Under the pieces are notes generated by a model. It was not told the origin of the DNA. It saw nothing but the letters and a program-made list of their open reading frames with translations, and did no database searches. From assembly GCA_946548895.1 (NCBI GenBank), contig CAMNQF010000014.1, positions 1-64,000 on the forward strand: 64,000 nt of DNA. The letters run 5' to 3'. The position numbers were made by a program, and so were the translations under genes. Below are positions 35,314 through 63,360 of the stretch, in pieces (the stretch's first letter is position 1; the number at the start of each line of letters is the position of its first letter). This DNA comes from an uncultured bacterium. Lineage in GTDB: Bacteria > Bacillota > Clostridia > Oscillospirales > Oscillospiraceae.

Positions 35314-36159
35314 ATGACGGGTCACACGTTTCAACAAAGATTTTTGGAGAGATATCGGGCTCACCTTTTGGAAGAGGAGCGCAGCGCGTCAACGGTCGAA
35401 AAATATTTGCGGGACGCGGGGGAGTTTGCCCGGTGGCTGGACGGCGGCCCTGTAAACAAGCAGGCAATGATCGCCTGGAAATCGGCGCTGCTGGCAAAAA
35501 ACTTAACCCCCGCCACTGTAAACGCGAAGCTGTGCGCGGTGAATGGCCTGATGCGGTTTTTGGGCTGGAGCGAGTGCAAGGTGAAGCTGCTGCGGATTCA
35601 GCGCCAGATATTTCGGGAGCAGTCCCGGTCTCTGAGCAAAGGGGAATATCTCCGCCTGCTGGACGCCGCCCGCAGCCTGGGAAAGGTCCGCCTGGAGCTG
35701 CTGATGGAGGCCATCTGCTCCACGGGAATCCGGGTGGGCGAGGTGCGGTATCTCACGGTGGAGGCCGTCCACGCGGGAAAGGCGGTCATCAATTTGAAGG
35801 GAAAGATCCGGGTTATCCTGCTGCCGGGCAAACTGTGCCGCAAGCTGAAAAAATATGCGGAAAAACAAAAAATCGCCTCCGGCGAGATTTTTCTCGCCAA
35901 AGACGGGGGCAGCCTGTCCAGAAAGCAAATCTGGCGGGAGATGAAGCGGCTATGCGAAACGGCGGAGGTGGAGCCCTCCAAGGTGTTCCCGCACAACCTG
36001 CGCCATCTGTTTGCCATGGCTTTTTACCGAATATGCCGGGACATCGTAAAGCTGGCGGACGTACTGGGGCACAGCTCAATCGAGACCACCCGGATTTACC
36101 TGTGTTCCACCGGGTCCGAGCACACCAAATACCTGGAACACCTGCATCTGATCGCGTAG
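35314..36159 (+). CDS. Tyrosine recombinase (XerC/D-like integrase)
   Basis: The 281-residue protein has an N-terminal SAM-like DNA-binding domain (FLERYRAHLLEEERSASTVEKYLRDAGEF) and a catalytic domain with the full set: Arg140 (CSTGIRVGEV), Lys164, His227-x-x-Arg230 (FPHNLRHLFA), His253 (LGHSSIETT) and Tyr262 (TRIYL). AAGGAGG is about 12 nt before ATG 35314. It stands alone, without phage or transposon partners, and a clear terminator follows. Small solo recombinases of this type in Firmicutes often work on invertible promoters or mobile elements; no inverted repeat pair of the right size was found nearby. Confidence 0.88.
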   Translation: MTGHTFQQRFLERYRAHLLEEERSASTVEKYLRDAGEFARWLDGGPVNKQAMIAWKSALLAKNLTPATVNAKLCAVNGLMRFLGWSECKVKLLRIQRQIFREQSRSLSKGEYLRLLDAARSLGKVRLELLMEAICSTGIRVGEVRYLTVEAVHAGKAVINLKGKIRVILLPGKLCRKLKKYAEKQKIASGEIFLAKDGGSLSRKQIWREMKRLCETAEVEPSKVFPHNLRHLFAMAFYRICRDIVKLADVLGHSSIETTRIYLCSTGSEHTKYLEHLHLIA

Positions 36160-36254
36160 GCGACGGAATAAGCAGTGTGGGACATCCTGCCCCGGGGAAC
36201 AGAGTCCCGCACGGCCCTGCCGGCGTGTCACAGCAAAAAAAGGCATAGAAAATC

Positions 36255-36292
36255 AGAGCCACAGGAAATATACCGCTGTGGTTCTAATTTTT
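36255..36292 (+). terminator. Recombinase terminator
   Basis: AGAGCCACAG (36255-36264) pairs with CTGTGGTTCT (36276-36285) with one G-U pair and an 11-nt loop, followed by AATTTTT. This is a normal intrinsic terminator between the recombinase and the pel promoter. Confidence 0.8.
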
Positions 36293-36339
36293 CATGTCTA
36301 TCAAGAATTCGGAGCAAAGAAACGCAGAAACACAAATCC

Positions 36340-36368
36340 TTGCATTTACACAGAAGCTGTGCTATAAT
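36340..36368 (+). promoter_or_regulatory. pel operon promoter
   Basis: TTGCAT, a 17-nt spacer and a perfect TATAAT lie about 190 nt before the first pel gene. It is the strongest sigma-A match in the window and should drive the whole 12-kb operon. Confidence 0.75.
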
Positions 36369-36374
36369 ACTTGA

Positions 36375-36554
36375 AAATATCAGGATATGTAGCGGCTTTG
36401 GACCAGAGTGCTTATTCCGTCGCCATTCAGCCCGGGGCGCGCCGTGGGGAAGGCCGCCTGACCAGGCGTTATGAGCGGGTACTGGTCCGGGAACAGCGGG
36501 CCGCTGCCGGAGCAGGGTTAAAGAAAGACAGGAATGACAGAGGGGGAGAACAGC
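36375..36554 (+). other. pel operon 5' leader
   Basis: No ORF is credible in this ~180-nt leader. A long-range pairing GGACCAG (about 36399-36405) with CTGGTCC (about 36482-36488) could close a structured domain. I could not match it to a c-di-GMP riboswitch consensus. The segment ends with GGGGGAG six nt before the GTG start of pelD. Confidence 0.35.
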
Positions 36555-38687
36555 GTGAAAATTGTCTACATCGGTGCCGCCGATGTACTGGCGGAGGCCT
36601 TGATCGAGCGGCTGGGCAAGGAGGGAAACGACGCGTACCTATTGTCCGACCAGGAGATTCCCGGGAAAAAAGAAGGCGGCTTTAAATACCGGTTCTATCG
36701 GAATATCCAAAACAGCGGCGCTCTGGGCAAGATTTTGGGCTCCATTTCGCCTGATTACGTCATTTTCGCGGGAAACCATTACATAAACGGCGCCTACTGC
36801 GAGGAGGAAGAGGAGGACGTCACCCAGTTTGCCAGCGTACTGCGGGTCCTGCCCGAGATCCCAGGCGCCAAATTAGCCCTGCTCTCCTCCATCGAGGTCT
36901 ATGGCGCGGTGAAAACCCCCGCGGATGAAAATTGCGAGCGCAGGCCCGTCACCCAGCGGGGGCTGCGTTTTGTGCGGGAGGAGCTTCTTTTTGAGCTCTA
37001 TCGCCGGCAGTACGGCGTCGAAGGCGTCATCCTGCGCGGTTCCCAGCTGTATTCCGACCGCGCCAAGGAGGGAAACCGGGATTTCCTCAGCGCCGCCTTT
37101 ACCCAAGTTGACCGTCTGCCGGAGGGGGAAAGCGTTTCGGACGAGGTCCTTCAGCCCCTCCATGTGTCCGACTTCGCGGACGCCTTGAACCGGGTCATAA
37201 ACGGCGGACAGCAGGATGTATACAACGTCTGCGGCAGCTTCCAGGTATGGAAGCGGCAGCTGTATCTCTGGATCGGGCAGGCCCTGGGCCGTTCGGAAAA
37301 GAGCGCCGTATGGAGGGAAGCCCAGCACCTCACGCTGGGGGACAACCGCCGGATCAAGAGCGAACAGGAGTGGACTGACTTCCGCAGCCTGGAGGACCAG
37401 CTGGCCGGCGGAAAGATCGCCTACGAGCGCCTGCCCGTTGAAAAGAAGCGGCGGGAGAAGAGCAATTTGCCCGCGGGCGTACGGCGGACTGTGGAAAACC
37501 TGGCGGTGTTTGCCGCGTTTTTTGGCCTGAACTTCCTGTGCCAGTCTCACAGCCTGTTTTCCCAGATTGATTGGCTTTTGATGTATGTGATCCTGATCTC
37601 TCTGTTTCTCGGCATCCGCCAGAGCTCCCTGGCGGTGATTCTGGCCAGCTGCACCTATCTGTTCAGCCAGGATTTGACCATTTTGGAGATGAACAACTTT
37701 TATTCCTACGCGGGCAGCGTGCTGGTCATTATGGAATTCGTGTTCCTCGGGCTGGTGGTGAGCTATACCGCGGATATGCTCCGGGAGAGCCTGCGCAACA
37801 ACGCCCTGGAGCTGGATATGCTTCGGGCGGAACATGAGGACCTGAAAGCCATCAACGATGAAAATGTCCTCATCAAAAACGAATACGAGGAGCGGCTCCT
37901 GGATTCCCGGTACGGCCTGCCCAAGCTGTACCATATGGTCAGCCGCCTGATGGTTCTGGAGCCGGACCGTATTTTTATGGAGATCATGTCCATCATTTCC
38001 GAGCTGGTCCACACCGACACGGTGGCCGTGTACCGCGTCCGGGCGGGAAGCCCCTACCTCCGCCTTATCAACGCGCTGAACGAGGAATCCATAGCGGGCG
38101 GAAAGTCCTGGGATGTCTCCCCCTATCCTCAAATCGTGAAATGCATGGAGCGGGGTGAGCTGTATCAGGGGGCTTTTGGCAGCGAGGAACCCGCCGTGAC
38201 GCTCCCCATACTTCACCAGGGGGCCTGTGTGGCGGTCATCCTGATTCAGAAGCTGCCCTATGAGAGCGAAACGCTTTACCACATTAACCTTCTTAAAACA
38301 CTCTCCCTCCTGCTGCGGGACTCCGTGGGCAGGGCGCTGGACTACGAGGAGCTCACCCGCTCGGGGCAGTATCTGGAGGGCGTGGATGTGCTCAAGCCGG
38401 AACCCTTCCGAAAAACCGTCCGGCTGGCCATGGAAAAATCGGAAAAGCACATTGCGGAATACTGCCTGCTGGAAATTCCGTATTCGGGCAGCCTGGAGGC
38501 CGCCTATGGGGCCGTTGCCCCCAAACTGCGGGTCACGGATCATTTCGGCGTGGACGAGGCCGGGCGGCTGTACGCCCTGCTGAACAGTACGGGGGCCGGG
38601 GATTTGGAGCGGCTCCAGGAGCGCCTGGCCGCGGATGGCGTAGAGCTCCGGGCCGCGGAGCCCTTCGCGGCGCTGGCGGAAGTATAA
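36555..38687 (+). CDS. pelD: PelD-like protein: SDR - membrane - GAF - degenerate GGDEF
   Basis: Starting at GTG 36555 (GGGGGAG six nt upstream), the 710-residue protein has an N-terminal extended-SDR/epimerase-like domain (KIVYIGAADVLAEALIERL, LLSSIEVYGAV), apparently without the catalytic YxxxK pair. About four TM helices follow near residues 325-425, then a coiled coil (NNALELDMLRAEHEDLKAINDENVLI), a GAF domain (HTDTVAVYRVRAGSPYLRL) and a C-terminal degenerate GGDEF domain. The last keeps an RxxD motif (LRVTDHFG) where diguanylate cyclases carry the c-di-GMP inhibitory site, but has no GGDEF. In Pseudomonas PelD this site binds c-di-GMP and activates Pel polymer export. Here it should be the membrane-bound sensor of the complex. 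Confidence 0.82.
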   Translation: MKIVYIGAADVLAEALIERLGKEGNDAYLLSDQEIPGKKEGGFKYRFYRNIQNSGALGKILGSISPDYVIFAGNHYINGAYCEEEEEDVTQFASVLRVLPEIPGAKLALLSSIEVYGAVKTPADENCERRPVTQRGLRFVREELLFELYRRQYGVEGVILRGSQLYSDRAKEGNRDFLSAAFTQVDRLPEGESVSDEVLQPLHVSDFADALNRVINGGQQDVYNVCGSFQVWKRQLYLWIGQALGRSEKSAVWREAQHLTLGDNRRIKSEQEWTDFRSLEDQLAGGKIAYERLPVEKKRREKSNLPAGVRRTVENLAVFAAFFGLNFLCQSHSLFSQIDWLLMYVILISLFLGIRQSSLAVILASCTYLFSQDLTILEMNNFYSYAGSVLVIMEFVFLGLVVSYTADMLRESLRNNALELDMLRAEHEDLKAINDENVLIKNEYEERLLDSRYGLPKLYHMVSRLMVLEPDRIFMEIMSIISELVHTDTVAVYRVRAGSPYLRLINALNEESIAGGKSWDVSPYPQIVKCMERGELYQGAFGSEEPAVTLPILHQGACVAVILIQKLPYESETLYHINLLKTLSLLLRDSVGRALDYEELTRSGQYLEGVDVLKPEPFRKTVRLAMEKSEKHIAEYCLLEIPYSGSLEAAYGAVAPKLRVTDHFGVDEAGRLYALLNSTGAGDLERLQERLAADGVELRAAEPFAALAEV

Positions 38688-38699
38688 AAGGGGCGGAAA

Positions 38700-39614
38700 G
38701 TGAGGTTGTGGGGCATGGCTGTGCTCGCCGTTCTGGGGATAAACCTGATCTGCGCGGTTTTGTACGCTGTTGTCAAGGCCGTCCGCAAAGAAGGAGCGGG
38801 CGTCGCGCTGTTTTTCCTGTTCCTCCCCGTGCTGGGGTTTATCATCTATTTCCTGCCCCGGCTGGTTCAAAAGCTCCTGGGGAAGGAGAGCTACGACCGG
38901 GATTCCCTGGTGCAGCGCTTTCATATCGACCGCATGGCGGAGCACCCCGATGTCCGGGAGGAGCTGGGCGTGGTGCCCGTGGAGGACGCTATGACGGTCA
39001 GCGGCAGCACGGAAAAGCGGGCGCTTCTTCTCAGGCAGCTGAAAAAGGACTCCAGAGAGAATTACAAGGTGCTGCTGGCGGCGGAGAACGACGAGGATTC
39101 GGAATCCGTCCATTACGTGGCCGCGGCCAAAATGGAAGCCTACCGCCTCCAGCAGCAAAATTGGATCGCCTGCAGTCAGGCGCACGAGGACGACCCGGGA
39201 GACCCGGAGAAATTCCACCGCGCCTGCGCCGCGCTGGAGGCCATGATTGGCGGCAGCGTCCTGTCCCCCATGGAGCAGAGGATGTACCAGAAAAAGTACT
39301 GCTCTATGGTGAGTGAGCGGGAGGATGGGGAGACAAACCCGGAGGAATACGAAACATACCTGGCTTATCTGGTGGAACTGGAGGAGTATGAGGCCGCGGA
39401 GCGGTTTTGGGCCCAGCACCGGGACCAAGTAAAAAGCGAGGCCGCCTACCTGAAAATGATGGAACTGTTCCATCAGAAGGGGGACTGGGCGGGCCTGCGG
39501 GCCTGCGTCGTCCAGCTGCAGGCGGATCAGGAGGTCCGCCTTTCCGCCAGGGGGCTGGAACAGCTGCGCTATTGGAGGGGGCGCTGCGCCCAGGCAGGGG
39601 AGGGCGCGGTCTGA
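38700..39614 (+). CDS. pelE: PelE-like membrane/TPR protein
   Basis: The 304-residue protein has two N-terminal TM helices (MAVLAVLGINLICAVLYAVV and ALFFLFLPVLGFIIYFL), then a charged, all-helical region with TPR-like repeats (EYETYLAYLVELEEYEAAERFW, LKMMELFHQKGDWAGLR). That is the architecture of PelE, an inner-membrane scaffold that joins PelD, PelF and PelG. GTG 38700 follows AAAGGGG; ATG 38715 is the alternative. It lies 12 nt downstream of pelD. Sequence is not highly conserved in this family, so the call rests on layout and position. Confidence 0.75.
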   Translation: MRLWGMAVLAVLGINLICAVLYAVVKAVRKEGAGVALFFLFLPVLGFIIYFLPRLVQKLLGKESYDRDSLVQRFHIDRMAEHPDVREELGVVPVEDAMTVSGSTEKRALLLRQLKKDSRENYKVLLAAENDEDSESVHYVAAAKMEAYRLQQQNWIACSQAHEDDPGDPEKFHRACAALEAMIGGSVLSPMEQRMYQKKYCSMVSEREDGETNPEEYETYLAYLVELEEYEAAERFWAQHRDQVKSEAAYLKMMELFHQKGDWAGLRACVVQLQADQEVRLSARGLEQLRYWRGRCAQAGEGAV

Positions 39615-39663
39615 ACCCCCGGGCGGCGGACCGCGGCAATCGCGATTTGGAATGAGGAATACC

Positions 39664-41379
39664 ATGGGAAGTAAGGAAATGCTGTCGATCAAGCGCCTCA
39701 TTTACGTGCTACTGATCGTAGTGGTGGTAAGCGCCGTGTTCATGGTTTATAACATCAATGAGGAGCGGGCCAAAAATATCCAGCTCAGAAACCTGGAAAT
39801 TGAGGCGCCGGAACTCACCGCCTCAGAGCCGGTGGACCCGGCGGAAAAGCCCCGCGTCACCCTGCTCGGCGGCCCGGAGCGGGACATCTACGGGGATATC
39901 TACCAAAACGCCCTGCGGCTGTTTCATGACCTCCACTTTACCGTCACCACCCGGGAGCGCTTGGACACGGGGCGGATCGGGTTTGACGAGCTGGTGGTTT
40001 TCTGCGACGACGACATTGGACGCTACGCGGACCTGACGGAGCTGGGGCAGTTTGTGGAGGGGGGCGGGAAGGTCATCCTGGCCTCGGGACTGCCGGAGGG
40101 AAGCGAAGATTCCTATTTGTGGCCCCTGCTGGCCATTCGGGAAAAGTCCGTCCGAAAAAATTACAACCGCCTGTCCTTTGAGGAACCGCTGCTCCCCTTC
40201 CAGCTGGACGAAATGGTCTATGACGGCTATAGCATATCCACCTGGCTGGCTGTGGGCAGCGAGGCCCAGGTGTATGTCAGGGACAAGGAAAGCGAGGTTC
40301 CGCTGCTCTACACCTGCCGCAGGGGCGCGGGCGGAATCTGCCTCATTAATGGAACGTTTCTCTCTGATATGCGGTGCGCGGGCCTGCTCACCGGGGCGGC
40401 GGGTACCCTGGCGGAGGATTTCATCTATCCGATAGTGGGGACGAAAACGGTGTTTTTAGACAACTTCCCCATGATTACCTTTATCAACGACAAGCTCTGT
40501 CTGCAGATGTACGGAAGCTCCACTGAGGGGTTTGTCCGGGATGTGGTGTGGCCCAGCTTTCAGGGCATCTCCCTCAGGACCCAGACGCCGCTCACCTCCA
40601 GCGTACTGGCCGCGGCCTCCCAGGCCAAGAGCTTCCCGGCGATCAACGACAGCCTGTTCACCACCATCGGCAAATCTGCGCTGCAATACGGCGGAGAGCT
40701 GATTTACGCGGCGAACTGCCCGGAGGGGGACAATATTCAGTATAACCAGACCTTTATTGACGAGTTCCGTTCCGTCTTTTCGAATTATCATATTCAGGGC
40801 CTGGCGCTGCAATCCCAACGCCTTTGGGACGGTATGCTGGCCATTCCCGGCTCGGAAATCCGGGCGGTACGGGGCCATTTGGGCGATGAGTCCGCCTCCT
40901 TCTTCGCCTCCGATTCGTATTTCGTCCTGCCCGCCGCCACAATGGGCAATTCCATGGAGGACGGAAACCTGTTTGCCATCGCGTCTGTGCTGGGGGCCTA
41001 TGGAATGGTTTCCCACGTGTTCGACGTCAATACCCTGATTGCCCAGGACGCCGCTACCGCCTCCTGGGACAGGGACAAGCGGCAGCTGGGGATTTTCGAG
41101 TCGGAGGTTTTGAACCGAATCCCCAATCTGGACGCGGTGACGCTGTCCCAGGCGGGCGGCCACGTGACGGGCTACCTGGCGCTGGAGTTTGGCTGGGAGA
41201 AGATCGGGAATCAGATCAAACTGAACTGCAGCGAAATGAAACCGGGCCAGACCTTTTTTTACCGGACGGGCCGCCGCATCGCGGACGCGCAGGGCCTTGC
41301 CTTCGAGGAGATGGGCGGCGGCTGGTATTTGCTGCGCGTCCAGGGTAACCATGCCGTTATCACGCTGGAGGAGGAATGA
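39664..41379 (+). CDS. DUF2194 membrane-anchored PelA-like protein
   Basis: The ~571-residue protein has one N-terminal signal anchor (IKRLIYVLLIVVVVSAVFMVY) and an extracytoplasmic part. It begins with a Rossmann-like/glutamine-amidotransferase-like domain (KPRVTLLGGPERDIYGDIYQ, VVFCDDDIGRYADL) and continues with a DUF2194 region containing VFLDNFPM, related to polysaccharide deacetylases. In Gram-positive pel clusters the PelA position is taken by a deacetylase-only protein. The classical deacetylase metal motifs (HxxxH) are not evident to me, so catalytic competence is uncertain. I chose ATG 39664 (GAGG six nt upstream); the track starts at 39652. Confidence 0.7.
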   Translation: MGSKEMLSIKRLIYVLLIVVVVSAVFMVYNINEERAKNIQLRNLEIEAPELTASEPVDPAEKPRVTLLGGPERDIYGDIYQNALRLFHDLHFTVTTRERLDTGRIGFDELVVFCDDDIGRYADLTELGQFVEGGGKVILASGLPEGSEDSYLWPLLAIREKSVRKNYNRLSFEEPLLPFQLDEMVYDGYSISTWLAVGSEAQVYVRDKESEVPLLYTCRRGAGGICLINGTFLSDMRCAGLLTGAAGTLAEDFIYPIVGTKTVFLDNFPMITFINDKLCLQMYGSSTEGFVRDVVWPSFQGISLRTQTPLTSSVLAAASQAKSFPAINDSLFTTIGKSALQYGGELIYAANCPEGDNIQYNQTFIDEFRSVFSNYHIQGLALQSQRLWDGMLAIPGSEIRAVRGHLGDESASFFASDSYFVLPAATMGNSMEDGNLFAIASVLGAYGMVSHVFDVNTLIAQDAATASWDRDKRQLGIFESEVLNRIPNLDAVTLSQAGGHVTGYLALEFGWEKIGNQIKLNCSEMKPGQTFFYRTGRRIADAQGLAFEEMGGGWYLLRVQGNHAVITLEEE

Positions 41380-41382
41380 GAA

Positions 41383-42822
41383 ATGCGGGTGTGCCTGATT
41401 TGCGAGGGATGCTATCCCTATGTGCCCGGGGGCGTCTCCAGCTGGATTCAGATGCTGTGCAGCCAGTTCAGCGACATTGAGTTCGTCATATGGGCCATTG
41501 CCACCACGCGGGAGGAGATGTCGGAGTACGCCTACCAGATTCCGCCCAACGTGAAAGAGATCCGCACGCTCTATCTGGGCGACGAGGCCTTTCAGCGGAC
41601 CCGCAGGAAAATCACGCTGTCCAAGCAGGAGAAAGAGACGCTGAAAAGCCTGATGGTCAGCTCGGTGGACAGCATTAACTGGGTGGAGGTGCTGGAGCTC
41701 ATCAAAAAATACCGGCGGCGCATGAGCGGCATCGTGATGAGCGAGTCCTTTTTTGAAATCTGCCTGGAGGAGTACCGCCGCCAAAATTCCAAAAAAGTGT
41801 TCCATCATTTTTTGTGGAATTTCAGGGGGATCTATTTCCCCCTGATGTATATCCTCTCCGGGGATATCCCCGAGGCGGATATCTATCACGCGGTTTCCAC
41901 CGGCTACGCGGGGATACTGGGCAGCTGCGCCTCCTATGTGGAGCAAAAACCCCTGCTGCTGTCAGAGCATGGCATCTATACCCGGGAACGGGAGGAGGAT
42001 ATCATCCGCTCCCAATGGGTGGCCGGGGATTTTAAAGAGATTTGGATTGATTTTTTCAAGAAGCTCTCCTTCATCGCCTACCGCCAGGCCAGCGCCGTCA
42101 CCAGCCTGTTTGAAACCAACCGCTCGCTTCAAGTGGAGCTGAACTGCCCGGCGGAAAAGATTCGGGTCATCCCCAACGGGGTGGAAGCCGCCGAATACGA
42201 CGTGTGCCGGGTGGAAAAAGCGTTCTCCAGCGAGAACGTCCTCCTGGGCGCGGTGCTGCGGGTGGTGCCCATCAAAGATGTGAAAACCATGCTTCTGGCC
42301 TTTGACATCGTCAAGCGGGCGGCGCCTGGCGCTCGGCTCAGGCTCATGGGGAACTGCCGGGAAAACCCGGAGTACTACCAGGAGTGCCTGGACCTGCTGG
42401 CGGAGCTGAAGACGGCGGACGTGGAATTTGCGGGGCAGGTCAACATCAAAGAGCATTTGCCGGAGATTGACCTGCTGCTCCTCTCCAGCATCAGCGAGGG
42501 CCAGCCCCTGGCCATTCTGGAGGGCATGGCGGCGGGGATCCCCTTCGTGACCACCAATGTGGGCAACTGCAAGGCCCTGCTGGAGGGAGAACGGGAGGAC
42601 GACCATCTGGGCGCCGCCGGGCTGGTGGTGCCGGTGATGAACAGCCAGGCCATGGCGGAGGCCATCCTGCACTGCATTCGAAACCCCGGGCTGCGCCGCC
42701 GCATGGGCGAGGTGGGCCGGAAACGGGTGGAGCGCTACTACAGCAGGCGGGATATGCTGGCCGCGTTTCACGATTTATACGAGAGTCTGGAGGAAAGCGG
42801 ATATGGCGGGAATCGGATTTGA
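41383..42822 (+). CDS. pelF: PelF, cytoplasmic GT4 glycosyltransferase of Pel synthesis
   Basis: The 479-residue protein matches PelF: N-terminal CLICEGCYPYVPGGVSSWIQML, the middle LLLSEHGIYTREREEDIIRSQW, and the GT-B donor side RVIPNGVE, LGAVLRVVPIKDVKTM and SSISEGQPLAILEGMAAGIPFV with the E-x7-E pair. PelF uses a UDP-HexNAc donor to build the cationic Pel chain. Family length is about 480-510, so it is complete. It starts three nt after the DUF2194 stop and overlaps pelG by 20 nt. Confidence 0.92.
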   Translation: MRVCLICEGCYPYVPGGVSSWIQMLCSQFSDIEFVIWAIATTREEMSEYAYQIPPNVKEIRTLYLGDEAFQRTRRKITLSKQEKETLKSLMVSSVDSINWVEVLELIKKYRRRMSGIVMSESFFEICLEEYRRQNSKKVFHHFLWNFRGIYFPLMYILSGDIPEADIYHAVSTGYAGILGSCASYVEQKPLLLSEHGIYTREREEDIIRSQWVAGDFKEIWIDFFKKLSFIAYRQASAVTSLFETNRSLQVELNCPAEKIRVIPNGVEAAEYDVCRVEKAFSSENVLLGAVLRVVPIKDVKTMLLAFDIVKRAAPGARLRLMGNCRENPEYYQECLDLLAELKTADVEFAGQVNIKEHLPEIDLLLLSSISEGQPLAILEGMAAGIPFVTTNVGNCKALLEGEREDDHLGAAGLVVPVMNSQAMAEAILHCIRNPGLRRRMGEVGRKRVERYYSRRDMLAAFHDLYESLEESGYGGNRI

Positions 42823-44188
42823 GCTGCGGAAAATATACGGCAGGAAAACGCTGGTATCCAACATCTGGGGAACTATTTACGCCACCATGACCTCCATTGG
42901 CCCGTCCATCATGGCCGCCGCGCTGATCCTTGCGCTGAAATTCATTATGGACCATTCCAACGCCACCGAACTGGAGAGCCGGTTTTTCGTCTCCTCCTTT
43001 ACCTACCTCTTTTTGACCAGCATTTTGATCTCCGCCCTTTTCAGCACCACGGTTTCCCGCTATATTTCGGATTGCGTCTTCACCAGAAGGGAAACGGAAA
43101 TCTGCGCGTCCGTGTTCGGCGTGCTCACGCTGGGAACCGTCATATCCGGCGCGGTCATGCTGCTGCTGTGTATTGGAATGTACGTTTACAGCCAGATACC
43201 GCTGTATTTTCTGGCCGTCTACTATTTGCTCGGCGTACTGGTGACGGACGCGTACAACATGATGATCTATGTCTCCGCCTTAAAAGAGTATAAGGAGGTC
43301 ACCCTCAGCTATTTCCTGGGGGTGGCGATGGCCGCCCTTGTGTATGTTTTGTGCCGGTACCTGTTCCAGCTGCACATCGTCCTGACGGCCTACCTGGCGC
43401 TGGCCTGCGGATATTTTCTGGTGGTGCTCATGCTGGTATTCTGGTGCGTGAAGGCCTTCGGGAAGCCGGGGCCCCGGTACTTCGCCTACCTGAGCTACTT
43501 TCGCCGGTTCCCCAAACTGACCCTCAGCGGGTTCTCCTATATGCTGGGTTTTTACATCTCCACCATCCTCTACTGGTACTTTTCCGATATGCAGGAGCGG
43601 ATCAGTATTTTTCACACGGCGCCCCTCTACGACCAGGCCATGTTTTTGTCCATACTGGTCAATATGCCTGCCCTGGTCATTTTTGTGGTTAAGGTGGAGA
43701 CGGCGTTCTTCGACAAATACACCCTATACCTGTCCTCTTTGAACAGCGGCTCTTATGACTTGATCGAGAAGGAGCGGCTGTCCATGAACAACACCCTGCG
43801 CTATCAGCTGTTTTTCGTGTATGAGGTACAGCTCATCATCTGCGTGGTGCTGATCTGCCTGGCCAATGTGCTCTTTCCCTATTTGAACATCAGCTCCCAG
43901 GTGCTGAATATGTTCATGGTGCTGAGTATGGGGCTGTATACCGTGTTCTGTATGTATTTCACGATTGTGTTTCTCTACTATTTTGAAGACCACACCGCAG
44001 CGTGTATCGGTCCCTGTGTGTTTGTGCTGGTGACGGCGGCGCTGTCGGCGGTGGCCGCCATGATCGGGAAGCCCTGGTATCCCCTCCCGCTGCTGCTGGG
44101 CGGGTTGAGCGGCTGGGTGGTATCCTTCCTGGCCCTGCGCCGCCGCCTGAACACGCTGAACCAATTTTTGATGTGCAAGCTGGACTGA
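42803..44188 (+). CDS. pelG: PelG, polytopic membrane protein of Pel export
   Basis: The 461-residue protein begins with the PelG hallmark MAGIGFELRKIY and has about 12 TM segments like Wzx/MATE flippases. PelG works with PelD, PelE and PelF to move the growing polymer across the membrane. ATG 42803 follows GGAGG at 9 nt and overlaps the pelF end. No membrane gene is missing for a Gram-positive-type machinery, and PelB/PelC outer-membrane parts are absent as expected. Confidence 0.92.
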   Translation: MAGIGFELRKIYGRKTLVSNIWGTIYATMTSIGPSIMAAALILALKFIMDHSNATELESRFFVSSFTYLFLTSILISALFSTTVSRYISDCVFTRRETEICASVFGVLTLGTVISGAVMLLLCIGMYVYSQIPLYFLAVYYLLGVLVTDAYNMMIYVSALKEYKEVTLSYFLGVAMAALVYVLCRYLFQLHIVLTAYLALACGYFLVVLMLVFWCVKAFGKPGPRYFAYLSYFRRFPKLTLSGFSYMLGFYISTILYWYFSDMQERISIFHTAPLYDQAMFLSILVNMPALVIFVVKVETAFFDKYTLYLSSLNSGSYDLIEKERLSMNNTLRYQLFFVYEVQLIICVVLICLANVLFPYLNISSQVLNMFMVLSMGLYTVFCMYFTIVFLYYFEDHTAACIGPCVFVLVTAALSAVAAMIGKPWYPLPLLLGGLSGWVVSFLALRRRLNTLNQFLMCKLD

Positions 44189-44201
44189 GGGGGGCCGCGC
44201 G

Positions 44202-45929
44202 ATGAACCGTTTGAAGAAACACGACACCCTGATTCTGACCCTCGCCACCTTGGGGGCCGCGGCCCTGTTCATCTTTTTGTACTGGCGCTCCCTCATTCCC
44301 ATCGAGGCGGCGGAGCCCCAGCCCTCCAACGCCCTGGAGGACTGGGACGTTTCCCAGAGCAATATGAACGGAGCGCCCTTTCAGGAGGACAAGGGAATCT
44401 ATACCCAGGACGCCGGCATTTACGATGTGTACATCAGCGTGTTCCCCACCAAAGACAAGGACGGCAATATGCTGGACTTCTCCTGTTTCGATCTGCACAC
44501 CGCCCGGGACCACAGCTACAATCCCATCCTGAACTGCAACATTCAAATCCTGCCCGAGGGGGAAAAGCCGGACCCCTTGCTGGACCTGGACAATAAAAAC
44601 GCCACAATCCGGGTTCGGGGGAATTCCTCCCGGGGCGTCAGCTACAAAAGCTACAAAGTCAAGCTGGACCAGGAGGCGGGGGACTTCTTTGGGCAGACCA
44701 ATCTGAATATCAACAAGCACGCGGGAGACGTCAGCAAAATATCGACGAAACTCCAGACGGACCTTTTGGCGCGGGTGGATCACATCGGCAGCTACCGCAC
44801 CTATTTCATGCGCCTCTGGATCCGGGACGCCTCCCTGCCGGAGGATGAGCAGGAATTTGAGTATTATGGCCTGTACACGGAGACAGAGCAGCCCAATAAG
44901 ACCTATTTGGAGGCGCGGAGCCTGAGCAGCAACGCCGTCATGTACAAGGCCCAGGACTTCAGCTTTGCCCTCAACGACGCGCTGCGGAACGTTGACGATC
45001 CGCTCTACTCTGAGGAGGAGTTTGAGGGCGTCCTCAGCATCCGGGAGGGAAACAGCCACGAAAAGCTGCTGGCGATGCTGACGGCCGTCAATGATCCCAC
45101 GGCGAATTTTGAAGAGGTATTTCACACATATTTCGACGAGGAAAACTACCTGACGTGGCTGTCGTTCAACCTGCTGATGGGCAATGAGGATATCATCAAC
45201 CACAACTTCATTCTCTACAGCCCGGAAAACTCCGTGACATGGTATTTTATCCCCTGGGATTTTGACGGGGCGCTGAGGTTTGGGGAATACCGCTCCACCT
45301 TCAGCCAGCCGGACTCCCTGCGGGGAATCCAGACGCTGAATTCCGGCATTTTGCATCGGAGATATTTCCGGCTGGACGGCAGCCTTGACAAGCTGGAGCG
45401 CAAGATGCGGGAGCTGTTGAGCGAGTCCATCACGCGGGAGCTGACAGAGAGCCTGATTCGCTCATACAAGCCGGTGTTGGAAAAAACCATGGCGCTGCAG
45501 CCGGACATTGAGCTGTTGGATATGCCCCCGAATGAGCTGATTCCCTATGTAGACGGGCTGTATGACGGAATATTGAGCAATTATGAGGCCGTTTTCTCCG
45601 CGGCGAAGTACCCGGCCCCCATGTTTGTGGCACAGCCGGAGCGCTACCCGGACGGCTCCGTCAGGCTTGCCTGGGAGCCGTCCTACTCCTACCAGCAGCG
45701 GCCGGTCACTTATACCGTCCGCGTTTACGGCGATTACCAGATGCAAAACCTGCTCTATGAGCAAAGCGGCATCTCACAGACGGAGTGCTTTCTGGAGGAG
45801 CTGGGGAACGGGACTTACTATTTGCTGGTTACGGCCACAGACAGCATGGGCAATGAACAGCTCAGTATGGAACACTATGAGAGCGACGGCGTCTATGTAT
45901 TCGGCCTGCTGGAATTCACGCTGAAATGA
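44202..45929 (+). CDS. CotH kinase family protein, membrane anchored
   Basis: The 575-residue protein has an N-terminal signal anchor (LILTLATLGAAALFIFLYW) and a CotH domain on the outside: NATIRVRGNSSRG, YKVKLDQEAG, WYFIPWDFDGALRFG. The last contains the D-F-D metal-binding-like triad of CotH kinases. A C-terminal Fn3-like domain (SVRLAWEPSYSYQQRPVTYTVRVYGD) follows. Bacillus CotH phosphorylates spore-coat proteins; here the link with Pel, VTC and DUF4956 suggests action on surface or matrix protein. The start follows GAGGGGGG. It is part of the same operon, 14 nt after pelG. Confidence 0.85.
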   Translation: MNRLKKHDTLILTLATLGAAALFIFLYWRSLIPIEAAEPQPSNALEDWDVSQSNMNGAPFQEDKGIYTQDAGIYDVYISVFPTKDKDGNMLDFSCFDLHTARDHSYNPILNCNIQILPEGEKPDPLLDLDNKNATIRVRGNSSRGVSYKSYKVKLDQEAGDFFGQTNLNINKHAGDVSKISTKLQTDLLARVDHIGSYRTYFMRLWIRDASLPEDEQEFEYYGLYTETEQPNKTYLEARSLSSNAVMYKAQDFSFALNDALRNVDDPLYSEEEFEGVLSIREGNSHEKLLAMLTAVNDPTANFEEVFHTYFDEENYLTWLSFNLLMGNEDIINHNFILYSPENSVTWYFIPWDFDGALRFGEYRSTFSQPDSLRGIQTLNSGILHRRYFRLDGSLDKLERKMRELLSESITRELTESLIRSYKPVLEKTMALQPDIELLDMPPNELIPYVDGLYDGILSNYEAVFSAAKYPAPMFVAQPERYPDGSVRLAWEPSYSYQQRPVTYTVRVYGDYQMQNLLYEQSGISQTECFLEELGNGTYYLLVTATDSMGNEQLSMEHYESDGVYVFGLLEFTLK

Positions 45930-45938
45930 GGTGGGGGC

Positions 45939-46649
45939 ATGGAGTACCTGGGACACCGCCTTCGGCATGAGATCAAATACTACATCAACGACAGCGTCTA
46001 CCACACCCTCCGCGCCCGGCTGAACACCGTAGCGGCCCCCGACCCCAACATGAGGGACCCGGAGGGCTACCTCATCAGCAGCCTGTATTTCGACGACATA
46101 TACCACTCCGCCATGGAGGAGAAGCTCTCCGGCATCCAATTTCGGAAAAAGTACCGCCTGCGCTGCTACGGCCGCTCCGACGCCCGCATCAGCCTGGAAT
46201 GCAAGCGAAAATACGCAGAGTATATCTCCAAGGACAGCACGTTGGTGACCCGGGCGCAGTACGACGCCATTCTGGCGGGCGATTACGACTTTTGGGCCGG
46301 CGGTTCTTCCCCCCTGGGGCTGGAGGTCTACGCCCTGCACCATCGGAACCTGCTTAAGCCCACTGTGGCGGTAGAGTACCTGCGGGAGGCTTACGTAATG
46401 CCCCAGGGCAACGTGCGGATCACGTTTGACAAGGATGTCTCCGCCTCAATAGACGACTATGATATGTTCTCCCCGCACTATCAGACACGGCGCGTCCTGG
46501 AGCCGGGCGTCATGGTGCTGGAGGTCAAATTTGACGATTTCCTGCCGGACGCCATCCGTCAGATTCTGAAAACCGCCATGACAGAAAAATGCGCCATCTC
46601 CAAATACGTCATGTGTAGAGATGAGAAAAGGAGACTTTTACACCGATGA
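45939..46649 (+). CDS. VTC-domain protein (polyphosphate polymerase-like)
   Basis: The 236-residue cytoplasmic protein is a VTC domain of the CYTH-like triphosphate tunnel fold: LRHEIKYYINDSVYHTLRARL, LISSLYFDDIYHSAMEEK, KKYRLRCYGRSDARISLECKRK, VAVEYLREAYVMP, and EPGVMVLEVKFDDFLP. Lys/Arg/Glu positions line the tunnel that, in yeast Vtc4, polymerises ATP gamma-phosphate into polyphosphate. Whether this bacterial version makes polyphosphate or only binds phosphate compounds is unproved. It overlaps DUF4956 by ATGA, so the two are coupled. Confidence 0.85.
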   Translation: MEYLGHRLRHEIKYYINDSVYHTLRARLNTVAAPDPNMRDPEGYLISSLYFDDIYHSAMEEKLSGIQFRKKYRLRCYGRSDARISLECKRKYAEYISKDSTLVTRAQYDAILAGDYDFWAGGSSPLGLEVYALHHRNLLKPTVAVEYLREAYVMPQGNVRITFDKDVSASIDDYDMFSPHYQTRRVLEPGVMVLEVKFDDFLPDAIRQILKTAMTEKCAISKYVMCRDEKRRLLHR

Positions 46650-47311
46650 ACACATTTTCCGACATCTTTAAGAAGGGCTTTCTGGAGGAAACCGGCAATC
46701 TGACCACCAGCGGTTTCGCCATGTCCATGCTGGCGGCCTTCCTGTGCGGCATGATCGTTTACGCGGTCTACCGAATGTTTTATAAAGGCGTTATCTACAA
46801 CAACAATTTCAATATCCTGCTGGTCCTGACCAGCACCGTCACCTGCTTTATGGTCATCGTCATCAGTTCCAACGTGGTGCTCTCCCTGGGCATGGTGGGC
46901 GCGCTGTCCATTGTGCGCTACCGCACCGCGGTCAAGGACCCGCTGGACGTGGGCTTCCTCTTCTGGACGGTGGCGGTGGGCGTCACCTGCGGCGCGGGGC
47001 TGTACCTCATCTCCATCATGGGGACGGTGTTCATCGCCCTGGTGTACATTATGCTGGTGAAGGTCCGCAGCCGGAAGCACCAGTACCTGCTGATCGTGAA
47101 ATACCAGAACGAGGCGGCGGAAGCCGTGCGCCGGCAGCTGATGCCGCTGAAAAAAGTGCTGAAAAACAAAACCTCCACAAAAAATCAGACGGAGCTGACT
47201 TATGAGGTGCGCGTCTCCGCGGACAATACCGCGTTTGTCACCACCCTCTCCGAAGTGGAGGGCGTCGCCAACGCCGTGTTGGTAGAGTTTACCGGTGATT
47301 ATTTTGAGTAG
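46646..47311 (+). CDS. DUF4956 membrane protein
   Basis: The 221-residue protein has about four N-terminal TM helices including the conserved GMVGALSIVRYRTAVKDPLDVGFLFW, and a soluble C-terminal alpha/beta domain (ELTYEVRVSADNTAFVTTL). DUF4956 proteins are near-constant partners of VTC-domain and CotH proteins, and resemble the small membrane part of a transport or signalling complex. The function is unknown. Its C-terminus resembles the decayed DUF4956 fragment at 52909-53080. Confidence 0.85.
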   Translation: MNTFSDIFKKGFLEETGNLTTSGFAMSMLAAFLCGMIVYAVYRMFYKGVIYNNNFNILLVLTSTVTCFMVIVISSNVVLSLGMVGALSIVRYRTAVKDPLDVGFLFWTVAVGVTCGAGLYLISIMGTVFIALVYIMLVKVRSRKHQYLLIVKYQNEAAEAVRRQLMPLKKVLKNKTSTKNQTELTYEVRVSADNTAFVTTLSEVEGVANAVLVEFTGDYFE

Positions 47312-48686
47312 GAGATTTCACTGCGCCGCGGGAGCGGCGGCGATCATTGCCGTGCTGCTTTTGGCGGGACAGGCCGTGTCATCCGCCAGGGTACAGGGCA
47401 GCTTTGCGCAGTCGCAGGAGATCCTGTCCAATCCGGACCGGGGGTTTTATATCCAGGTCAGCACCGGACAGCCCGGCAAAATCACAGAGGCGGCCGAAGA
47501 AGTGCGCGTCATTCTCCTGACCTACGACATTGAGGATTATGCGCGGGAGGAGGACATTCCAAAGGAAAAGATAAATGAGCTGCGGGACGCCCTCCTCATG
47601 GCGAAAAAGGAACATTTGGGAATTGTTTTCCGGGCCGCCTATGGCTTCCATAAGGAGGTGAGGGAGCCGAAAGAGCTGAAAACCATCCGCCGACATATCA
47701 AGCAGATCTGCAATGAGCTCAACGATTACGCGGAGGAGATTTTAGTGGTCCAGGCGGGAATGCTGGGCGAGTATGGCGAATGGCACTCCAGCCGCTTTCT
47801 GGATGACTCGGAGGATGAGAGCCGGGAAAACCGCGTGTATGTTTTAAGGCAGTGGGAGAAATATCTGGATCCGGGCATTTTAGTGGCGGTGCGCCGCCCA
47901 AAATTTGTGCGGGAGGCGTGGGAGGAAGGCGTCCTGTCCGGCCGGCTGGGCGTACACAATGACGCGCTGCTGTCCACACAGAGCGATATGGGTACCTACG
48001 ATGACCCGGACATGGACCGGGAGGCGGAATTGGCCTGGATGCGGGATCATTTGGCCGGCCAGTACAACGGCGGAGAAATGCCCACCCAGGGACCGCTCAA
48101 CGAGCCCCAAAACGCGGACCGTGAATTCTCCATGCTCCACCTGAGCTATCTGAACGCAAAGTATAACCGAACCGTCATAGAGAGCTGGTCCCGCCAGTGG
48201 TTCCAAGGGATGAGCGCCAAGCAGTATCTGGAAAACCGCCTGGGCTACCGCCTGTATATCTCTGAATTGAGCGCAAATATGTTCATTTCCAGTGAAAGGC
48301 TGTCCAGCGCGGGTTTGGACCTTGAGTTGAGCCTCACAAACTCGGGGTATGCCCAGTTGCCCGGGAAATACAAGCTGTTTTTGTCCGTTGACAACGGGAT
48401 CATGCGAACCTACCAGCCGGTCCAGCTGCCCGCGCTGAACCAGATCGTCAACGGCCAGACGGTGACCGCCCAAGTGACGGTCAAGGTCCCGCAGGAGTTT
48501 TGCGAGGAAATGGGCCCCATTACCATCGGCATTAAGATCGCTCCGGCACAGGGCGCGTTTGAAAAAACCTGTGTTCTGCTGGCAAATACCGGCGTTAACC
48601 GCCAGGATGGAATCAACGGGTTTATGCAGCTGTCGCCGGCTCTGGGCTCCAGCTATCGGACATCAATACAGATTGCCAAGAATTGA
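47295..48686 (+). CDS. Exported DUF4874/DUF4832 protein (putative glycosidase-like)
   Basis: The 463-residue protein has a signal peptide (CAAGAAAIIAVLLLAGQAVSSA). An N-terminal TIM-barrel-like DUF4874 region follows with LSNPDRGFYIQ, LLTYDIEDYA and VVQAGMLGEYGEWH. The middle has NEPQNADREFSMLHLSYLN, and a C-terminal DUF4832 beta domain contains LELSLTNSGYAQLPGKYKLF. The layout suggests a carbohydrate-active enzyme outside the cell, perhaps trimming or anchoring the exopolysaccharide. This is inference. The GTG start at 47295 overlaps the DUF4956 end by 17 nt. Confidence 0.75.
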   Translation: MIILSRRFHCAAGAAAIIAVLLLAGQAVSSARVQGSFAQSQEILSNPDRGFYIQVSTGQPGKITEAAEEVRVILLTYDIEDYAREEDIPKEKINELRDALLMAKKEHLGIVFRAAYGFHKEVREPKELKTIRRHIKQICNELNDYAEEILVVQAGMLGEYGEWHSSRFLDDSEDESRENRVYVLRQWEKYLDPGILVAVRRPKFVREAWEEGVLSGRLGVHNDALLSTQSDMGTYDDPDMDREAELAWMRDHLAGQYNGGEMPTQGPLNEPQNADREFSMLHLSYLNAKYNRTVIESWSRQWFQGMSAKQYLENRLGYRLYISELSANMFISSERLSSAGLDLELSLTNSGYAQLPGKYKLFLSVDNGIMRTYQPVQLPALNQIVNGQTVTAQVTVKVPQEFCEEMGPITIGIKIAPAQGAFEKTCVLLANTGVNRQDGINGFMQLSPALGSSYRTSIQIAKN

Positions 48687-48754
48687 CCGCATACGCCGCC
48701 GGTTGGGATGCCGTTTCATGAACCGCTCCGGCCCGCGACACACTTGTATAGCGC

Positions 48755-48793
48755 GAGATGCCCGCCGGCGGCCCGGCGGGCATCTCTTTTTTT
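48755..48793 (+). terminator. pel operon terminator
   Basis: A perfect 14-bp stem (GAGATGCCCGCCGG with CCGGCGGGCATCTC, 4-nt loop) followed by seven T. It closes the 12-kb pel/CotH/VTC operon. The 226-nt gap from 48687 to 48912 has no gene; near 48870 an AGA loop flanked by GCGCGC repeats may be a weak terminator for the opposing pst operon. Confidence 0.92.
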
Positions 48794-48912
48794 GGCAGGC
48801 TGGCGGCGAAATAAAAACGGGAGTCCTTCGGGGCACTGGCCTGGAAATCTGATAAGGCGCGCAGAGCGCGCGGCCCAATGCCGCGGATGGCCGCCGATCC
48901 CTCCGCGGCAGA

Positions 48913-49174
48913 TCACAGCGCCACTCCCTTGTGCTCCCCGGTGACGGCGAAAATGACCCATTTCGCAGATGTGCCCCACATCCTCCGGCACATAGCCGCC
49001 GGGCAGCATGGTCAGCACGATCTCCGCTTCCAGGCGGCCGACTTTCTCCGCAAGGGTTTTGTCGCCCTCCGCCAGGGCTTTGGCCGCCAGGGAAATGGCC
49101 TCCTCGCACAGCGCGCCCATTTGAATCAGCTCCCGGTTCAGCAAAGAGAGCTGTTCGTCAAATTTGCTCCGCAT
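48913..49174 (-). pseudogene. phoU: phoU remnant (internal deletion plus frameshift)
   Basis: PhoU is a phosphate-signalling partner of PstB of about 215 residues. ATG 49174 opens a good PhoU N-terminus (MRSKFDEQLSLLNRELIQMG, EEAISLAAKALAEGDKTLAEKV) for about 52 residues. The central ~130 residues are then missing. After a short garbled stretch (GYVPEDVGHICE) a different frame supplies the typical PhoU end WVIFAVTGEHKGVAL, stopping at 48913. The ORF track's 152-residue ORF runs past this in the wrong frame. So phoU is broken although pstSCAB upstream is intact. It lies three nt downstream of pstB. Confidence 0.75.
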
Positions 49175-49177
49175 GGT

Positions 49178-49933
49178 TCACCCAAACCTCCCTGTGATAT
49201 AGTCCTCCGTCCGCTTGTCCGACGGCTGGGAGAACAGCCGCTCCGTCTCCCCGCACTCCACGAGCTCCCCCAACAGGAAGAACGCCGTGCGGTCCGAAAC
49301 ACGGACGGCCTGCTGCATATTGTGGGTCACGATGACAATGGTGTACCGCTCCTTCAGCTGCATGGCCAGCTCTTCAATTCTGGAGGTGGAGATCGGGTCC
49401 AGGGCGCTGGTGGGCTCATCCATCAGCAGCACCTTGGGCTCCACCGCCAGGGCCCGGGCGATGCACAGCCGCTGCTGCTGGCCGCCGGACAGGCCCAGGG
49501 CGTTCTTTTTCAGCCGGTCCTTCACCTCGTCCCAGATGGCCGCCCCCCGCAGGGAGCGCTCTACCAGTTCGTCCAGCCGCGCCCGGTTCTTGATCCCGTG
49601 GGTCCGGGGACCGTAGGCCACGTTGTCATAGATGGACATGGGAAAGGGGTTGGGCTTTTGGAATACCATGCCGATCTCCCGGCGCAGGGCGTTCACGTCC
49701 AGGCCGGGGGCAAAGATGTCCTGCTCCCCGTATTTCACCTCCCCGGTGACCTTGACGCCGGGGATCAGGTCGTTCATTCGGTTCAGCGTTTTCAGGAAGG
49801 TGGACTTGCCGCAGCCGGAGGGGCCGATGAGCGCGGTGATATTGTTCTCCGGAATGGTAATGTGAATGTTTTTCAGGGCCTGAACGGAGCCGTACCACAG
49901 GCATAAGTCTTTCGCGGTGATGATGTCGTTCAT
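49178..49933 (-). CDS. pstB: PstB, phosphate ABC transporter ATP-binding protein
   Basis: The 251-residue ATPase has Walker A ([10 protein letters not shown]), the Q-loop region [20 protein letters not shown] typical of PstB, the ABC signature [16 protein letters not shown], and Walker B ([13 protein letters not shown]). The true start is ATG 49933, overlapping the pstA stop as ATGA; the ORF track runs over 100 codons too far upstream. It couples ATP hydrolysis to phosphate uptake by PstC/PstA. Length is normal (250-260 aa). Confidence 0.95.
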
Positions 49934-50793
49934 AGGGCACGACCTTTCTTGAAGTACCGGCCGGTCAGGGCGGCGGCCAGGTTGACGCACAGCGTCAGCA
50001 GCATTAGGATGGCGGCGATGGCGAAGGAGGCCCCCGCCGCGCCGGGGGTGGGGTCGCTGACGTAGAGGTACAGCGCCACGGTGAGGGTGGCCCCGGGACT
50101 GCGCAGGGCGCTGAAAAAGCCGTTGAGGGTATGGGCGAAGCCCGCCGTGAACAGCAGCGCCGCCGACTCCCCCAGAACGCGCCCCGCCGACAGGACGCAG
50201 CCGGTGACGATGCCGTCCACGCAGCCGGGGAGCACCACCGTGCGGATCACCCGCCACCGCCCGGCCCCCAGGCCGAACGCCCCCTCCCGCAGGCTCATGG
50301 GTACGGTTTTCAGGCTCTCCTGGGCGGTGCGCATGACGGTGGGCAGGTTCATGACCGCCAGCGTCAGCGCCCCGGCCAGCAGGCAGGACCCGAAGGTGTT
50401 AGCGAAAACCAGCATCCCCACCAGCCCGAAAATGATGGACGGAATGCCGGACAGAGTTTCCGCCGCGTACTCGATGGCGGCTGTCAGGCGCTTGTTTTGC
50501 GCGTACTCCGTCAGGTAAATAGCCGCGCCCACCCCCAAGGGAAGCACAATGAGCAGGGCGGCCAGAATGATGTACAGGGTGTTGAGGATGTCGGGCAGGA
50601 TGCCGATGGAGCCGGCGAGATAGCTGGGCTTGGTGGACACCAGTTCCCAGGTGATGTGGGGAATTCCGCTGGCCAGCACCCAGCCGATGAGGAACAGGGC
50701 CAGGCCGCAGGTGAGGGCCGTCGAGAGAAGCATCAGGGCCTTCGCCAGGGCGGCGCGGGCCCTCCGGGCCGGGGACATGGACCGCTTCAGCAT
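49930..50793 (-). CDS. pstA: PstA, phosphate ABC transporter permease
   Basis: The 287-residue permease has six TM segments and the MetI-like permease loop ([31 protein letters not shown]). ATG 50793 follows GGAGGG and overlaps the pstC end by seven nt. The N-terminal [15 protein letters not shown] and the [19 protein letters not shown] loop fit PstA. It pairs with PstC to form the channel. Confidence 0.93.
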
Positions 50794-51671
50794 GGCGAGC
50801 CCTCCTTATCCCGTTTGAGGAAGAAGTTCAGCGCCGCGTTGACCAGCAGGATGAACAGGAACAGCACCAGGGCGATGGAAAACAGCGCCTGCTGGTGAAG
50901 GCTGCCCTGCCGGGAATAGGCCATCTCGCTGGCCACGGCGGTGGTGAGGAAGCGGACGCTCTCAAACAGCGAGGGCATATTAGGGGCGTTGCCGGATACC
51001 ATCATCACCGCCATGGCCTCGCCAATGGCACGGCCCACCCCCAGCACCACCGCCGCGGCAATGCCGCTGCGGGCGGCGGGGACAGACACCCGGAACCAGG
51101 TCTCCACCGGGGTGGCCCCCAGGGCCAGGGAGGCGTCCTCATACTCCTGGGGCACCGCCTCCAGGGCGGTGACGGACACCTTGATGATGGAGGGCAGGAT
51201 CATCACCGCCAGCACCACAATGGCCGAGAGCAGGCTGGCCCCGTCGGGGACGTGGAAGGCCGCCCGGACGGCGGGCACCAGCACCAGCATCCCCACCAGC
51301 CCGTACACCACCGAGGGGATGCCCGCCAGCAGGCTCACCGCCCCCTCCGCCGCCGTTTTCACCTTGGGCGGGGCCAGCTTGGCCAGGCAGACCGCCGTGA
51401 AAAAGCCCACCGGCACCCCGAACAGCACGGCCCCGGCGGTGCCGCAGACACTGGTGAGGAGGAAGGGCAGAATGCCGAATTGGGGCTGGGCCGCCGTGGA
51501 TGCCCAGGTATCCCCCAGCAAAAAGTCCGGCAGGCCGATCTGGAGGATGGCGGGGATGCCGGACAGGATCAGGTACACGGTAATCAGCAGCACACAGCCC
51601 ACCGTCACCAGGCCCAGCAGCAGGAATACGCCGTGAACGGCGCGCTCCAGCGCCTGTTCTTTCTTGCGCAT
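50787..51671 (-). CDS. pstC: PstC, phosphate ABC transporter permease
   Basis: The 294-residue permease has six TM segments, the PstC-type start (RAVHGVFLLLGLVTVGCVLLITVYLILSGIP in two parts), a periplasmic-type loop with LGDTWASTAAQPQFGILPFLLTS, and the cytoplasmic EAA-like loop (EAVPQEYEDASLALGATPVET). ATG 51671 follows GAGAGGA. Overlaps pstA by seven nt, so they are coupled. Confidence 0.93.
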   Translation of the reverse strand: MRKKEQALERAVHGVFLLLGLVTVGCVLLITVYLILSGIPAILQIGLPDFLLGDTWASTAAQPQFGILPFLLTSVCGTAGAVLFGVPVGFFTAVCLAKLAPPKVKTAAEGAVSLLAGIPSVVYGLVGMLVLVPAVRAAFHVPDGASLLSAIVVLAVMILPSIIKVSVTALEAVPQEYEDASLALGATPVETWFRVSVPAARSGIAAAVVLGVGRAIGEAMAVMMVSGNAPNMPSLFESVRFLTTAVASEMAYSRQGSLHQQALFSIALVLFLFILLVNAALNFFLKRDKEGSPC

Positions 51672-51702
51672 GATGGGTTTTCCTCTCTTGGGGCGGGGCG
51701 GC

Positions 51703-53280: not shown

Positions 53281-53335
53281 CCCCCGTCCGCGTGCGCATC
53301 CGGCCTGGCGGTGAGGCGCAGCCGCCCAAAATTGT

Positions 53336-63333: not shown

Positions 63334-63360
63334 TACTTTACTCCCGTATTGTCCCATGGA

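Follow-up and report, generated by a model that had tools for sequence, protein, structure and literature searches.

A 64,000-nucleotide stretch of DNA from an uncultured Oscillospiraceae bacterium (positions 1 to 64,000 of contig CAMNQF010000014.1, assembly GCA_946548895.1; hereafter the window) carries an operon for the exopolysaccharide Pel, preceded by a tyrosine recombinase gene and by a promoter segment bounded by inverted repeats. The operon consists of nine plus-strand genes at 36534-48686, in which pelD, pelE, pelA, pelF, and pelG are adjacent and in order, and the genes for CotH, VTC, DUF4956, and DUF4832 proteins follow contiguously on their 3' side. The features are listed below, with the basis of each assignment in parentheses.

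35314-36159, + strand: tyrosine recombinase of 281 aa, candidate invertase (catalytic residues, family matches)
36159-36180, unstranded: left inverted-repeat arm, GGCGACGGAATAAGCAGTGTGG (22 nt; 91% complementarity with its right counterpart)
36241-36299, unstranded: terminator-like hairpin within the segment, flanked by A and T runs, with a presumed terminator function
36340-36368, + strand: promoter TTGCAT-N17-TATAAT (ON orientation as assembled, towards pelD)
36403-36424, unstranded: right inverted-repeat arm, CCAGAGTGCTTATTCCGTCGCC (repeat search)
36534-38687, + strand: pelD (degenerate SDR domain, transmembrane region, C-terminal RxxD motif, RVTD, resembling an I-site)
38700-39614, + strand: pelE-like gene (position; profile built in this work, 2e-104, common to other pel loci)
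39652-41379, + strand: pelA, DUF2194 (E 8e-24; deacetylase fold, active site lost)
41383-42822, + strand: pelF glycosyltransferase (NCBIfam equivalog NF038011, 382 bits, cut-off 100)
42803-44188, + strand: pelG exporter (PF16933, 326 bits, cut-off 29)
44202-45929, + strand: CotH-like kinase, exported or membrane-anchored (PF08757, 5e-46)
45939-46649, + strand: VTC polyphosphate-polymerase-like protein (PF09359, 2e-35)
46646-47311, + strand: DUF4956 membrane protein, MgtC-like (PF16316, 2e-11; alignment)
47295-48686, + strand: DUF4874/DUF4832 exported protein (DUF4832 1e-33, DUF4874 5e-28)
48755-48786, + strand: operon terminator (14-pair stem and T run)

A preliminary description, made from the sequence alone, had taken the nine genes for a single operon with one promoter, one strong terminator, and short or overlapping junctions, and this was borne out: the intergenic gaps range from -20 to +37 nt, and the terminator is the strongest terminator-like site on the plus strand of the region, a terminator scan of which revealed no comparable site inside the operon. 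The pelE gene matched no Pfam or NCBIfam family, and both pelD and pelE were named from their positions and from profiles built from homologous operons. No riboswitch or other known RNA was found upstream of the operon, there being no Rfam match anywhere in the window.

The nine-gene architecture is not new, having been published by Whitfield et al. 2020 (PMC7112168), who reported CotH, polyphosphate polymerase, DUF4956, and DUF4832 genes contiguous with pelDEA(DA)FG in streptococci and clostridia. These clusters (PMC7112168, PMC12345266) share with the window the nine genes, their order, the degenerate SDR domain on PelD, and the terminal position of DUF4832, whereas the window adds an invertible-type promoter with its own recombinase and the loss of the catalytic residues of PelA. 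The window operon is of a known type but is probably governed by a DNA switch and encodes a deacetylase that looks dead. The same order, which the preliminary description had proposed to look for elsewhere, was found with all nine genes in further members of the order (L134, L136, L137, and L139; assigned with our own profiles) and, with a second, tandem CotH gene and an intact PelA active site, in L161 (genome G515); L135 has all the genes except DUF4832, and L138 could be recovered from pelD to CotH, within which its contig ends. Since the accessory genes accompany Pel in these genomes as well, they are no chance neighbors, and the possibility that the module stands here by accident was rejected. 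The window PelG and PelF are only 22-27% and 37-43% identical, respectively, to all other Pel proteins compared, and a search of 251 genomes of the family revealed no closer PelG, the best reaching 28%. In the Pel tree, the window branches alone on a long branch, nearer to operons with lost PelA sites, although this placement is unsure; judged by sequence, it is a divergent Pel lineage. The RxxD motif at the position of the inhibitory site for cyclic di-GMP (c-di-GMP) is kept in 11 of the 11 PelD proteins compared and the genome encodes three strong GGDEF proteins, whereas PelD of Streptococcus intermedius lacks GGDEF (PMC12345266).

The preliminary description had missed that the promoter of this operon sits in a probably invertible segment. 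This segment of 266 bp is bounded by the 22-nt inverted repeats, with 222 bp between the arms, and its left arm starts at the last base of the recombinase gene. The repeat contains a perfect core of 16 bp, a length reached in none of 3000 dinucleotide shuffles. In the recombinase, the six catalytic residues (R140, K164, H227, R230, H253, and Y262) are intact and invariant in a 15-sequence alignment, and the protein has matches to models of XerD/XerC and of tyrosine-type DNA invertases, each with a score far short of its cut-off. The promoter has the setting of an inverton, between inverted repeats and adjoining a site-specific recombinase, and it is the only evident promoter of the operon.

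Indeed, both promoter orientations exist among related loci. Six related elements also have the TTGCAT and TATAAT hexamers, with a spacing of 16-18 nt; the promoter is ON in the window and in L031, and OFF (reversed) in L024, L025, L027, L054, and L160. The switches of L025 and L160 directly precede pelD, so that both are pel operons with the promoter OFF, and in L031 other sugar genes stand between the switch and pel. Two further loci were left out as pel switches, namely genome G017 (L026/L053), which holds pieces of pel and recombinase genes but also a truncated gene and a stretch of N, and L081, where the switch faces another sugar cluster. Strict pairwise alignment of the inner segments left the orientation of the window unresolved, and milder scoring with a shuffle null settled it for L024 and L025. 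With the arms removed, these segments match the window only when inverted, scoring 20.5 and 29.5 against a shuffle maximum of 15-16, and their same-orientation scores of 10.5-11 are at the null level; the inner segments of L027, L031, and L160 are too diverged from the window beyond the promoter for such scoring. The recombinase gene has the same place and direction in the window, L024, and L025, the last being the pel operon of a congener. Moreover, contigs end within 400 nt on the 3' side of the recombinase gene in 10 of 80 loci, compared with 2 of 80 on its 5' side, and three of the breaks fall 22 nt past the recombinase stop, which is the arm position in relatives. Such breaks are the assembly scar to be expected where both orientations of a segment coexist. 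Flipping has been published for the same kind of element: a survey that used sequencing reads from a defined gut community (PMC11892184) reports that "inverton group 139" flips in Clostridia and is tied to one invertase group, group 35, with examples of 255-257 bp from Intestinimonas butyriciproducens and from Clostridium sp. D5. That group resembles the window in its segment of about 255 bp, repeats of 14-26 bp, adjacent tyrosine recombinase, and occurrence in gut Clostridia including Intestinimonas, and I. butyriciproducens An565 carries a cassette of the window type (L078); the main text of the survey does not mention Pel. Since the promoter lies in a repeat-bounded segment beside a recombinase, ON in the window and OFF in related pel operons, Pel of the window is probably phase-variable, a coat switched on and off at random.

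The arrangement is widespread. Homologues of the recombinase were gathered whether or not repeats accompanied them. In 60 of the 70 named loci that extend 400 nt or more past the gene, an inverted repeat begins no farther than about 130 nt from its stop codon, compared with 47 of 1367 random anchors; in 45 of 75 elements, the arms share a core approximating ACARAAT-N4-ATTYTGT. The hosts belong to Oscillospiraceae, Lachnospiraceae, and their neighbors, and in dozens of gut Clostridia the cassette adjoins surface and polysaccharide genes, with the promoter either way round: when scored for direction, 49 of the 75 elements were OFF (away from the downstream genes), 15 were ON, and 11 were unclear. 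The first genes behind 70 switches include those for a further integrase (8), GGDEF proteins (3), and response-regulator proteins (3), besides pilin-tip, leucine-rich, and repeat surface proteins and capsule and sugar-transfer genes. The genome of the window itself holds a second cassette (L036, G000:C1:182867-183679; locus to 184841), with its promoter OFF, directly preceding a gene for a response-regulator GGDEF protein (diguanylate cyclase). In L025, L040, and L160, the repeat arm occurs a third time, inside or beside the segment, an arrangement that could permit multiple inversions or a deletion. Genome G042 has many copies of the recombinase on several contigs (L044, L045, L049, and L051), several of which end just past the recombinase gene.

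The second distinctive feature of the operon concerns PelA. In Bacillus cereus, the active site of PelA(DA) comprises D262, D263, an HxxxH pair, R458, H488, and D491, and this catalytic site is required for Pel (PMC13254593). The window PelA has LDN in place of DD, no HxxxH anywhere, PA in place of PR, and SHVFDVN in place of SHFxHPDD; the zinc-binding and catalytic residues, including the Arg and the terminal Asp, are thus gone, and the protein lacks a CE26 active site. The fold itself appears deacetylase-like, since the best match in the PDB to the AlphaFold model (predicted local distance difference test score 76.6, moderate confidence) is the deacetylase Agd3 (6nwz; E 3.5e-12, template modeling score 0.45-0.50). 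The DD and HGYNH/HGFNH motifs are kept in PelA of L134-L139 and L161, and HxxxH is also missing from PelA of the pel operons L140, L025, L026, L031, L081, L159, and L160; because seven other operons share it, the motif loss is no sequencing slip. The window deacetylase thus looks dead and, with its catalytic and zinc-binding residues lost, the polymer is probably neutral rather than positively charged, PelA probably serving as a scaffold only, although the catalytic site is required in B. cereus. This disagrees with the proposal of the preliminary description that a cationic Pel pairs with polyphosphate, as does Pel of S. intermedius, inferred to be mainly neutral N-acetylgalactosamine (GalNAc; PMC12345266). 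As a set of pel operons in Clostridia has lost the site, neutral Pel is predicted more widely, and the question arises of what role remains for PelA.

The accessory proteins retain their characteristic residues. The window CotH matches the spore coat CotH structure 5jd9 (E 1.9e-11) and contains GNED and WDFD, in keeping with the GNxD and WDxD motifs. A VTC profile matches yeast Vtc4 (3g3q, E 5.5e-18), for which a profile was required, a PDB search with the single sequence giving no match; K13, R73, R75, K89, K98, R149, E195, and K222 are invariant, so that the catalytic Lys, Arg, and Glu residues of Vtc4 are represented. The DUF4832 protein has invariant G-E-x-H and GGE motifs and no PDB relative by sequence; it is a probable counterpart of S. 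intermedius SIR_1591, a Pel hydrolase that disperses aggregates (PMC12345266), the activity being established for SIR_1591 alone.

The CotH-VTC-DUF4956 trio is not confined to Pel. In 295 genomes of the order, PelG scored above the cut-off in 8, whereas DUF4956 was present in 195 and CotH in 162, and 13 loci fetched from outside pel (L141-L153) have VTC adjoining DUF4956 with CotH beside them, the CotH being checked with Pfam in 9 of the 13. Two of these (L150 and L151) show the Pel-type order CotH-VTC-DUF4956 without pel, and three (L143, L148, and L149) have the layout VTC, DUF4956, CotH, a protein of about 710 aa, a HEAT protein, and a GT2 polysaccharide synthase; L104, whose contig stops there, shows the first four of these genes. 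This layout resembles NELoc-2 of Clostridium perfringens (PMC2879425), where VTC, a membrane protein of about 225 aa, and CotH are adjacent and are followed by a protein of about 685 aa, a HEAT protein, and a glycosyltransferase; NELoc-2 differs from the window in that VTC comes first and Pel genes are absent, and its "tubulin" gene would, from position and size, be DUF4956. A Pel-specific trio was accordingly rejected: occurring with GT2 synthases and also on its own, without Pel, the trio is a companion of surface polysaccharides at large and can be investigated functionally apart from Pel. The non-pel loci contradict the published statement that the arrangement is not found outside the Pel locus (PMC12345266). 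Three VTC-DUF4956 loci without Pel (L104, L148, and L088) lie 3' of the same recombinase family; in L104 the switch repeat was seen with the segment OFF, and in L088 the segment is ON. The window also contains, at 52930-53376 on the minus strand, what remains of a VTC gene (roughly profile positions 35-110) and, after it, an apparent DUF4956 C-terminus, the two adjoining a two-component system at 53666-55551.

What the trio does for Pel has been approached genetically in S. intermedius (2025), where each gene was deleted and the five pel genes were needed (PMC12345266). The deletions of VTC and CotH that the preliminary description had proposed are thus already on record: no effect of VTC deletion on aggregation or Pel was reported, and deletion of CotH or DUF4956 lowered aggregation. 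Whitfield et al. (PMC7112168) hypothesized that CotH is a protein kinase regulating Pel synthesis, served by VTC and DUF4956, with no phosphate in the matrix. This hypothesis, which covers the module only and is compatible with a promoter switch, agrees with the altered aggregation and Pel level of the CotH and DUF4956 mutants (PMC12345266). However, its argument rests on streptococci without c-di-GMP control, whereas the window genome has both the PelD RxxD motif and GGDEF proteins, and the trio occurs with GT2 synthases too; we regard it as possible, though rather unlikely, here. The part of the preliminary description that survives is the proposed phosphorylation of a surface target; polyphosphate in the matrix is unsupported as stated.

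Collectively, we favor the explanation, to which we would give a probability of about three in four, that the window carries a Gram-positive nine-gene Pel operon under an invertible promoter, making a neutral polymer and accompanied by a separate phosphotransfer module. The recombinase would recognize the repeats at 36159-36180 and 36403-36424 and flip the intervening 222 bp. As assembled, the promoter would read into pelD (ON); after flipping, it would read back towards the recombinase gene, with the hairpin facing the operon (OFF), so that individual cells would or would not make the polymer. PelF (GT4) and PelG would make and export alpha-1,4-GalNAc, c-di-GMP would tune PelD through the RxxD site, the polymer would stay acetylated and neutral with PelA as a scaffold only, and the DUF4832 protein would trim it. 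CotH, VTC, and DUF4956 would constitute the phosphotransfer module, traveling with surface polysaccharides in general, in which VTC may make polyphosphate inside the cell at its membrane partner DUF4956 and CotH may phosphorylate a surface target.

Several points weigh against this explanation. The -35 element of the promoter is weak (3/6 match), which is why the promoter is absent from the list of a generic promoter scan, and a second promoter may lie beyond the right arm. That the segment inverts in this strain is presumed from sequence; the probable identity of the cassette with inverton group 139 is judged from size, taxa, and layout rather than sequence; and the assembly comprises 116 contigs with 4% contamination. 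PelA might bind metal through other residues, and five other CE4-type deacetylase genes lie elsewhere in the genome. Polyphosphate synthesis by the bacterial VTC is suggested by its fold and residues. An improbable alternative is that the repeats are a relic or the attachment sites of a mobile element, the promoter being fixed and the recombinase moving DNA without flipping it. The window recombinase does match phage integrase families too, and some of its relatives adjoin further integrase genes; nevertheless, the same arm-promoter-arm layout in dozens of loci, the homologous segments in opposite orientations, the contig breaks at the segment, and the published flipping (PMC11892184) argue against a fixed promoter. 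The idea of the preliminary description that cationic Pel and anionic polyphosphate from the same operon pair in the matrix, or that the polymer or its anchor is phosphorylated, is highly improbable as a whole, for although the VTC and CotH active-site residues are kept and the module is conserved with Pel, the PelA active site is lost, VTC has no export signal, its deletion in S. intermedius had no reported effect (PMC12345266), and the trio is also found without Pel.

Pel has so far been treated as a polymer controlled by c-di-GMP, and we found no report in the literature consulted of random on/off switching of a Pel operon; if true, such switching would give mixed populations of matrix-making and free-living cells in the gut. 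A promoter-type switch 5' of a surface operon, as proposed for the window, is known from Clostridioides difficile, where RecV reportedly inverts one before the flagellar operon and c-di-GMP genes are reported to be phase-variable too. We tentatively extend the invertible-promoter explanation, at slightly unfavorable odds, to Pel of gut Clostridia as a neutral, acetylated polymer that is phase-variable by inversion and coupled to the second switch, that on the diguanylate cyclase (G000:C1), two coin-flips then deciding on the matrix.

Among the neighboring genes, those for a Pst-type phosphate ABC transporter with a PhoU-like fragment (48719-52518, minus strand) stand end-to-end with the operon terminator, and a large GH2-type glycosidase (31094-35017, plus strand) is encoded 5' of the recombinase gene. 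A Fic/DOC protein gene (61305-62246, plus strand) and a stand-alone reverse transcriptase (RVT_1; 62362-63381, minus strand) lie farther downstream, the latter near the window end.

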